From: Halobaculum sp. MBLA0147
GTDB lineage: Archaea > Halobacteriota > Halobacteria > Halobacteriales > Haloferacaceae
Direction of reading: 5' to 3'
DNA: 64,000 bases
Assembly (NCBI RefSeq): GCF_041361345.1
Contig: NZ_JBGKAD010000001.1
Coordinates: 2,418,001 to 2,482,000, forward strand
The notes below the pieces were generated by a model. The model worked only from the letters and a program-made list of their open reading frames with translations, was not told where the DNA came from and did no database searches. The position numbers were made by a program, and so were the translations under genes. This document shows, one piece after another, positions 19,745 through 60,433 of the stretch (the first letter of the stretch is position 1; the number at the start of each line of letters is the position of its first letter).

Positions 19745-19878
19745 GGTAGTGTTTATATTGGTGAGTCATTGGACGAGACTACCACTCAGGAAGCCCCGAC
19801 CCGTTCGCAGTCGAGGCGCTCGTTTCACTCGCGCCTCGCACGCGCCACCCGCAACAGTCGGCGTACTCGAATACCACC
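19745..19878. mobile_element. MITE-like element, copy 1 (short form)
   Basis: 134 bp bounded by inverted ends: ggtagtgtttatatt (19745-19759) and, in reverse complement, ggtggtattcgagta (19864-19878). It shares the 28-bp block GACGAGACTACCACTCAGGA plus AGCCCCGA with copies 2 and 3, and CGCGCCACCCGCAA near the right end. The central region present in the longer copies is replaced by a single hairpin (CGAGGCGC/GCGCCTCG). It has no coding capacity. Confidence 0.65.
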
Positions 19879-57253: not shown

Positions 57254-57328
57254 ACGCGCCCGTTCGCCGAGACACGCGTAAAACCCTCCGGAACCCGGCG
57301 ACGAGTCGTCTCCGGTGTCGCTGCAGTC

Positions 57329-57412
57329 GTGGTGGCCGTCGGCGTCGTCGTTCAGTCGGCCGTGGCGACCGTGGTGGCCGTCGGCGTCGTCGTTCAGTCG
57401 GCCGTGACGACC
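57329..57412. repeat. 42-bp tandem duplication at a gene 3' end
   Basis: Two units with a 42-bp period (57329-57370 and 57371-57412) on gtggtggccgtcggcgtcgt plus cgttcagtcggccgtgrcgacc. The right unit contains the stop and final codons of the leftward gene at 57394; the left unit is a downstream copy. Confidence 0.75.
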
Positions 57413-58518: not shown

Positions 58519-58566
58519 CACGTTCAGTAGGGCTTCGACAGCCTTGACTCCTCGGGTGGTACGCCG

Positions 58567-58851
58567 GGTAGTGTTCAGATACGGGTGAGTAGTCAGACGA
58601 GACTATCACTCAGGAAGCCCCGAGGGGATCGCGGTCGCTCGGCGACATATCGCGCCTCTCGGCACCACCCGGCGCGATAGGGGCCGCCGAGACGACTGAA
58701 GTGAACGCGATCCCCTCGCCCCTTCCAGTCCCGCCCAAATCCGCCCCGCACAGCGCCTCGCCCTCCCCAGCCTCGTCGCTCGCTGCGCTCGCTCCTCCCT
58801 CGCGCGTTCCTCGCGCGCCACCCGCAATCGTCGGCTTATCTGAACACCACC
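58567..58851. mobile_element. MITE-like element, copy 2
   Basis: 285 bp with terminal inverted repeats ggtagtgttcagata (58567-58581) and, reverse-complemented, ggtggtgttcagata (58837-58851), one mismatch in 15. Internal nested stems are 58621-58633 with 58706-58718 (13 bp), 58638-58644 with 58685-58691 (7 bp) and 58648-58656 with 58671-58679 (9 bp). It has no protein-coding frame and no clear target-site duplication. It lies in the gap before the aldo/keto reductase gene 3' end. Confidence 0.75.
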
Positions 58852-59023
58852 GCACGCGTCGCGTGTGTTACCCCACGAAAAGAGCTCGGTCAGAGACGCC
58901 ACCGGGGCGCTCCGCGGAACGCCCGCTCGGGGTGTCCTCGCGGCGACCACCTCCGCCACCGCACCCGTTCGACGGGTCGCCGTTCGGACCCACCCGGCCG
59001 TCTCGCCCGGCCGACCCCGGCCG

Positions 59024-60044: not shown

Positions 60045-60433
60045 GGTAGTGTTCAGACAAGGATGAGTAGTCGGACGAGACTACCACTCAGGAAGCCCCG
60101 ATCCGTCGCCGGGCGGCTCCGCCGCCCGGCTGGTAGCGGGAGCTTCGCTCCCGCCCACCTCGCGGTCGCTCGGCGGCATATCGCGCCTCTCAGCACCGCC
60201 CGGCGCGATAGGGGCCGCCGAGACGACTGGAGTGAACGCGAGCGGATCTACGGGAGAGCGGAGCTCTCCCGAGGAAACGGCGGCAGAGCCGCCGTGACCG
60301 CCCGTTCCAGCCCCACCCGAAACCGCTCCGCACAGCACCTCACCCTCCCCAGCCTCGTCGCTCGCTGCGCTCGCTCCTCCCTCGCGCGTTTCTCGCGCGC
60401 CACCCGCAACTATCGGCTTATTTGAACACCACC
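60045..60433. mobile_element. MITE-like element, copy 3 (expanded)
   Basis: 389 bp with inverted ends ggtagtgttcagaca (60045-60059) and, reverse-complemented, ggtggtgttcaaata (60419-60433). It shares the left 58 bp, the central stem region and about 130 bp at the right end with copy 2. Extra hairpins are inserted at 60108-60130, 60136-60154, 60251-60271 and 60277-60295. The central stems pair 60159-60164/60237-60242, 60169-60177/60214-60222 and 60179-60187/60202-60210; an outer GATCCG/CGGATC stem joins 60100-60105 and 60243-60248. Confidence 0.75.

Follow-up and report, generated by a model that had tools for sequence, protein, structure and literature searches.

The repeat element and its hairpin

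The genome of Halobaculum sp. MBLA0147 (4.29 Mb, six contigs) was examined in a stretch of 64,000 nucleotides of its 3.0-Mb contig, referred to below as the window, which carries the copies of a short repeat element listed in Table 1. The sequence-only reading had placed nested stems of the element at 58621-58718; a hairpin does lie there, but the whole element (copy 2) is longer and is bounded by terminal inverted repeats.

Table 1. Positions of the element copies, their flanks and the parts of the hairpin in the window
Feature	Position	Strand	Description
Copy 1	19745-19878	+	MITE copy, 134 bp, without the middle hairpin
Left flank of copy 2, GTACGCCG	58559-58566		Decayed 8-bp target duplication, 5/8 identical to 58852-58859
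Copy 2	58567-58851	+	Complete IS6-type MITE, 285 bp; ends GGTAGTGTTCAGATAC... and ...TTATCTGAACACCACC
Hairpin core	58610-58736	-	Covariance model R1, 138 bits; G000:C1:2476610-2476736; minus is the folded strand
Helix 1, 5' side GGAAG	58613-58617		Partner CTTCC, 58722-58726
Helix 2, 5' arm CGAGGGGATCGCG	58621-58633		Partner 58706-58718; contains the A-T to C-G change (58628 with 58711)
Helix 3, GTCG	58634-58637		Partner CGAC, 58693-58696; nearly invariant
Helix 4, CGGCGAC	58640-58646		Partner GCCGCCG, 58683-58689
Helix 5, TATCGCGCC	58648-58656		Partner GGCGCGATA, 58671-58679
Helix 2, 3' arm CGCGATCCCCTCG	58706-58718		Partner 58621-58633
Right flank of copy 2, GCACGCGT	58852-58859		Decayed 8-bp target duplication
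Copy 3	60045-60433	+	MITE copy, 389 bp; double hairpins inserted in both hairpin arms
Insert splitting the 5' arm of copy 3	60106-60158		Double hairpin; compared with L004, L014 and L071
Hairpin core of copy 3	60159-60242	-	Partial model match, 88 bits
Insert 3' of the copy-3 arm (TACGGGAGAGC...GTGACC)	60249-60298		Double hairpin; also in L008, L009, L011 and L014

The hairpin is about 125 nt long and consists of five helices. A letter-by-letter check found all pairings and coordinates of the sequence-only reading in the sequence, including those of ATCGCG (58628-58633) with CGCGAT (58706-58711) and of CTCGGCG (58638-58644) with CGCCGAG (58685-58691) in copy 2. Helices 1 and 2 are separated by a 3x3 internal loop, CCC/CCC, and helix 4 includes one position pair (58645/58684) that is G-U when read on the minus strand and A-C on the plus strand. 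Whether taken as RNA or as DNA, and on either strand, the copy-2 hairpin folds more stably than 200 of 200 dinucleotide shuffles, the z-scores of the two strands being -4.3 and -5.3 for RNA and -5.0 and -6.1 for DNA. The module 3' of the core (window 58737-58830, CCGCACAGC...CCTCCCCAGCCTCGTCGCTCGC...CTCCCTCGCGCG) is conserved on its own in many genomes of the order. Two tandem 42-bp copies, 98% identical, are located at 57328-57411, just beyond the 3' end of a minus-strand gene region.

The same reading had pointed to a compensatory change, the A-T pair of copy 2 being C-G in copy 3 on both arms at once, and this is correct to the base. Both sides do differ, but the difference is not confined to one base pair, since the whole distal arm differs between two arm types, GAGGGGATCGCG/CGCGATCCCCTC (loci L001-L003 and L005) and GATCCGCTCGCG/CGCGAGCGGATC (L004, L007 and L011). 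Because these types swap as whole arms, the change within this genome may represent a single block replacement. In copy 3, CTCGCG (60159-60164) pairs with CGCGAG (60237-60242), while GATCCG (60100-60105) and CGGATC (60243-60248) had been taken for a different stem outside it; they are self-complementary, but GATCCG is half of one arm with CTCGCG and not a separate stem. That arm is interrupted in copy 3 by an inserted double hairpin and is unbroken in L004, where it reads GATCCGCTCGCG. Such units of about 50 nt, each made of two small hairpins, are inserted at varying sites of the element (apical loop, arms and 3' module) in L005, L006, L009, L014, L024 and copy 3 (60106-60158 and 60249-60298); units resembling one another turn up in different loops, giving the impression of small palindromes inserted into larger ones.

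Distribution, covariation and the probable folded strand

A BLAST search with the core alone detected the hairpin in 29 of 392 genomes. A covariance model built from 29 copies (alignment A2) extended this to 198 of the 392 genomes and 64 of the 95 genera, with E-values down to 1e-29; named hosts include Halorussus, Halosimplex and Halopiger, as well as plasmids of Haloarcula, Halorussus and Haladaptatus. When 150 candidates were scored per genome, 112 model matches were counted in a Halorussus genome, 87 in a Halosimplex-type genome, 23 in G083 and 16 in the genome studied here. No Rfam family matches the hairpin, and no description of it was found in the open literature, subscription papers being outside the scope of the search. 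This is a strongly covarying structure present in two thirds of the sampled Halobacteriales genera, in up to more than 100 copies per genome, and absent from Rfam and the open papers searched. A viral origin was rejected, IMG/VR having yielded no exact pattern and the phage comparison no match.

Two variations were observed. Genus g2 of the same family (L084-L107) has a related element in which the outer frame CAAAGCCCCAG...CTGCCCCTTTGAGTCC and the 3' module are retained but the inner hairpin is a different one; TTTATAA-like boxes are present on either side. The 5' flank (...GAACACCTCGAAAGCCCCCG...) of several copies from Halorussus and family f1 (L082, L103, L113, L118 and L232) is tandemly repeated ahead of the full hairpin, in units of about 50-75 nt.

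Covariation was evaluated on A2, a plain MAFFT alignment, and on A3, which comprises 111 matches (102 distinct) from many haloarchaeal genera; fitting to the model biases A3 towards the structure, and A2 agrees with A3. Among the 38 pairs, 20 had changed on both sides in A2 and 29 in A3. Standard pairs fill 94.7% of the A3 cells, compared with 80.7% after shuffling and 26-48% with slid partners, and the covariation score is 0.332 against 0.104 for shuffled data; none of 500 shuffles reached any of the five measures used on A3. In a test that keeps relatedness, based on the APC-corrected G statistic for all column pairs of 74 sequences less than 85% identical, the top ten of 7,260 column pairs are all stem pairs and rank above all 7,222 non-stem pairs. 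The pair singled out in the window (A3 columns 40/240) ranks fifth among the 7,260 and occurs as CG 59, GC 26, AU 3 and UA 3 times. Its change in this genome was possibly one block swap; the other genomes provide independent support for the pair. Selection for a folded RNA or DNA hairpin, which had been proposed from the change in the window alone, is therefore supported by the covariance model and the covariation test, and conservation of the hairpin structure can be regarded as practically certain.

The direction of wobble pairing was used to distinguish the strands. Read on the minus strand of the window, A2 contains 25 G-U and 11 A-C combinations, six of the A-C cases falling at a single misaligned end pair. 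For A3 the inner helices give 55 G-U versus 16 A-C (15 versus four sites), and the plasmid copies give 14 versus one. The counts on A3 and A4 come from alignments fitted to the minus-strand model. An excess of G-U on one strand argues for selection on one folded strand, since a cruciform or a neutral palindrome process would give no wobble bias, and the bias fits a folded single strand of either RNA or DNA. Although its function is inferred, the hairpin probably works as a single folded strand, which would be the minus strand of the window.

Two-sided change is not in itself conclusive, as template-switch copying of palindromes could produce it too, and the hairpin might be maintained purely by mutation, with template switching between the arms during replication rewriting one arm without selection. 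The whole-arm swaps in this genome are in keeping with such a process, as are L129/L146 and L130/L164, each the same locus in two species, where both arms may differ with pairing kept and the flanks are 79-90% identical. However, the process does not predict fixed unpaired loops (GGG/GGG, UCU/AG, CCC/U and a bulge), the wobble strand bias or the fixed place on plasmids described below, and as the sole explanation it is very unlikely. Template switching may nevertheless be the way in which arms change even where the hairpin is selected.

MITE carriage and dispersal on chromosomes

In this genome the whole repeat gave 41 BLAST matches, nearly all on the 3.0-Mb contig, and copies 91-96% identical to copy 2 lie elsewhere in the genome. 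Copies with two ends span from GGTAGTGTTCAGATA to TATCTGAACACCACC. The 8 bases flanking each end show 62.5% identity, compared with 28.2% in shuffled pairings (0 of 2,000 shuffles), and among the duplication lengths of 4-12 tested none but 8 stands out strongly. Some elements entered this test in both orientations, which inflates the nominal significance and leaves the comparison of lengths unaffected. Perfect 8-bp duplications are found at L004 (CGTCGCGC) and L009 (GTCAGAAC). The terminal inverted repeats GGTAGTGTTCAGATAAG are common to the MITE copies and to two IS6 remnants, each roughly 700 bp long and situated on contigs C2 and C6 (L065 and L067), which have ends of this type on both sides. 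The reading frame of the L067 remnant matches the NCBIfam IS6 transposase model NF033587 with an E-value of 1.2e-34 and, being partial, falls slightly short of the curated cut-off. All IS6 copies seen were broken. The site syntenic to copy 2 is empty in G003, a genome of the same genus, consistent with insertion of copy 2. The IS6-like ends, the 8-bp duplication and the empty site together indicate that here the hairpin is, very probably, cargo of a non-autonomous IS6-type MITE, its movement by an IS6 transposase being inferred.

It could be supposed that nothing more is involved, that is, that the element is only an IS6-type MITE with a hairpin as cargo and that all remaining copies are decayed old ones. 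The ends, the 8-bp duplication and the IS6 partner remnants of this genome agree with that, but 96 copies outside it show no excess of IS6-like ends around the hairpin over a reversed-pattern control, and it is the hairpin that is conserved, not the ends. As a full account this explanation is largely refuted by the outside copies and is scarcely tenable, and IS6-like ends as a general property of the hairpin were ruled out on the same grounds. The element thus shares with IS6-family MITEs, in this genome, its short non-coding nature, IS6-like inverted ends and 8-bp target duplication, and differs from them in having a hairpin conserved across the whole order that lacks such ends elsewhere. MITEs of haloarchaea have been reviewed (PMC3119063).

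The dispersed copies are mostly intergenic, six of 80 overlapping a frame called by a simple gene finder, and they show no preferred orientation to neighbouring genes (19 same/same, 18 opposite/opposite, 11 and 9 mixed). On account of this random orientation a terminator, riboswitch or UTR element was rejected. Neither flank of the copies is enriched in TATA-like boxes, and a conserved promoter ahead of one strand or the other was rejected for that reason. When neighbouring reading frames were clustered, no recurrent protein partner emerged on chromosomes, the sole partner being the plasmid gene considered in the next section. The hairpin itself forms the repeat unit in Halorussus, where most matches extend from about 803 to 926 of the query, and some positions are common to different species. 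A Y1/HUH transposase is absent from 7 of 16 element-rich genomes, and no element match was found in 20 Y1 loci; a REP/RAYT system was accordingly rejected, the Y1 search having shown no link. A TnpB/omega-RNA or PATE origin, a lead suggested by the AGGAAGCC motif, was also set aside, no tnpB being seen near the copies.

Of described repeats, REP/BIME elements with RAYT transposases likewise occur as many intergenic palindromic copies foldable on one strand; the present element differs in having no linked Y1 transposase and in its 125 nt, five helices and fixed loops. SMR-A of Haloquadratum walsbyi, about 110 bp long, strongly palindromic and present in up to 54 copies (PMC3119063), is similar in its strong palindrome, high copy number and lack of a known mobilising enzyme. 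SMRs are, however, defined by terminal repeats and by insertion into IS605/PATE palindromes (PMC3119063), neither of which has been shown for the hairpin.

Plasmid copies and a possible single-strand signal

In 11 of the 14 plasmids found through the element, the hairpin lies 397-622 nt upstream of a gene for an OB-fold (RPA/SSB-like) protein, and in a twelfth (L363) it lies 992 nt upstream; all 12 have it on the same strand, the folded strand being the template of the OB-fold gene. The gene is annotated as SOSS-B family, DNA-binding or replication factor A, and its product gives weak matches to RPA/SSB-type OB-folds in Pfam and NCBIfam, below the curated cut-offs. The Haloarcula and Haladaptatus proteins are about 33% identical, so that the arrangement of hairpin and gene must be old. 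On nine Haloarcula plasmids, most of those examined, a gene for type IV secretion coupling is located no more than 7-8 kb away on the opposite side. No OB-fold gene was found near chromosomal copies among the chromosomal loci examined.

The gene family occurs in 178 haloarchaeal plasmid records. When loci were selected through the gene, independently of the element, seven of 16 have a model match (E-values from 1.6e-7 to 0.016, obtained in unfiltered searches of small sets), and L378 has a weak one (E 0.44). These matches, which represent diverged versions of the hairpin, lie about 420-545 nt upstream, on the same strand as in the plasmids found through the element, and come from Haladaptatus, Natrinema, Halomicrobium, Halobaculum, Natronobeatus, Salinigranum and Haloplanus. 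A recognisable hairpin is absent from about half of the 16 gene-picked loci. In pNRC100 the outer frame GAAAGCCC...CCCTTTC is present, with an insertion, and this frame was never seen on the opposite strand at the SSB loci. The SSB genes of Haloarcula have an ordinary TATA-like box, CTTTATATA, between the element and the gene (seen in L162).

The plasmid position bears on two explanations of the dispersed copies. According to one, the element is a REP-like mobile hairpin whose folded single-stranded DNA is the recognition site of a transposase or recombinase acting in trans, so that only foldable copies spread, and its place on plasmids is one old insertion kept by descent. Numerous, intergenic and randomly oriented copies, the wobble bias on one strand and the coincidence of the Halorussus copy boundaries with the hairpin would all be expected of such an element. 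It does not predict, however, that the hairpin keeps its position and strand ahead of the SSB gene in four families, and it is further weakened by the element-rich genomes without Y1/HUH, the element-free Y1 loci and the positions shared between species; it remains a serious but unlikely candidate. The other explanation is a structured non-coding RNA transcribed from the minus strand, the dispersed copies being retro- or DNA-copies or acting in each flanking transcript. Conserved internal loops and the predominance of G-U over A-C on one strand are as expected of RNA, but there is no promoter near the copies, their orientation to genes is random, Rfam holds no such family, and the plasmid hairpin folds on the strand opposite to the SSB mRNA and hence is not an SSB leader, so that this possibility appears improbable. 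RNA and single-stranded DNA are both compatible with the data; the plasmid context leans towards DNA. Folding of the whole SSB-upstream region, compared strand against strand, gave an ambiguous result.

Any mechanism has to accommodate action as one folded strand, a preferred plasmid position at a gene for a single-stranded-DNA-binding protein, and tolerance of dispersal. A parallel is offered by the Frpo/ssi sequences of F-type and related bacterial plasmids: on entry the single strand folds and forms a promoter from which ssb and further leading genes are transcribed. In F, Frpo2 precedes ssb within the leading region and adopts its fold as single-stranded DNA (PMC9849209, PMC11541004). The haloarchaeal plasmids share with them a hairpin of the folded single-strand type upstream of a gene for a single-stranded-DNA-binding protein, near conjugation genes, the folded strand again being the template strand of the gene. 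The element differs in having neither bacterial -35/-10 boxes nor an archaeal TATA/BRE in the stem, in its hundreds of chromosomal copies, and in that no sequence similarity has been shown. Neither the stem nor the sequence adjoining it showed an archaeal promoter of the TATA/BRE type, the only fixed AT part of the stem being TATC/GATA. This weighs against the proposed signal, as do the ordinary TATA-like box between element and gene in Haloarcula and the gene-picked loci without a recognisable hairpin.

By analogy, the plasmid hairpin would form on the single strand produced during transfer or replication and would serve, in the Frpo/ssi manner, as a single-strand signal, either a single-stranded-DNA promoter or a primer/initiation site, turning on the SSB gene with the folded strand as template. 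For the plasmid copies this is the most likely working model, yet it is held only tentatively and at less than even confidence, because the stem has no promoter box, oriT is unknown and there is no experiment; transcription or priming is inferred without activity data. Use of the hairpin for priming, or its binding by the OB-fold protein, would be equally compatible. Status as a leading region has not been shown, since neither oriT nor the direction of transfer is known for these plasmids.

A plasmid signal does not explain the more than 100 chromosomal copies. These would be dispersed descendants of the plasmid hairpin, spread by hitch-hiking in MITEs in the present genome and by an unknown route in Halorussus and Halosimplex. 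The complete chain, from a hairpin of about 125 nt acting as a folded single strand, through an Frpo/ssi-like plasmid signal, to dispersed chromosomal descendants, is plausible but falls somewhat short of an even chance. It is doubtful at present that the hairpin is the first archaeal single-stranded-DNA signal of conjugative plasmids and that chromosomes have gained up to more than 100 copies from it; should the plasmid model be true, the authors know of no earlier signal of this kind in Archaea. The plasmid position provides a concrete hypothesis for the single-stranded stage of archaeal plasmids, about which almost nothing is known, and makes the question of archaeal single-stranded-DNA promoters directly testable in Haloarcula.

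Between the hairpin and the SSB-like gene, in the region about 500 nt upstream of the OB-fold gene in L368-L372 and L375-L379, the plasmids contain a long non-coding stretch with several further strongly conserved hairpins. One example is GCGCGCTCTCGCTCGCGCC...GGCGCGAGCGAGAGCGCG, and the plasmids that have these hairpins in common belong to many genera.
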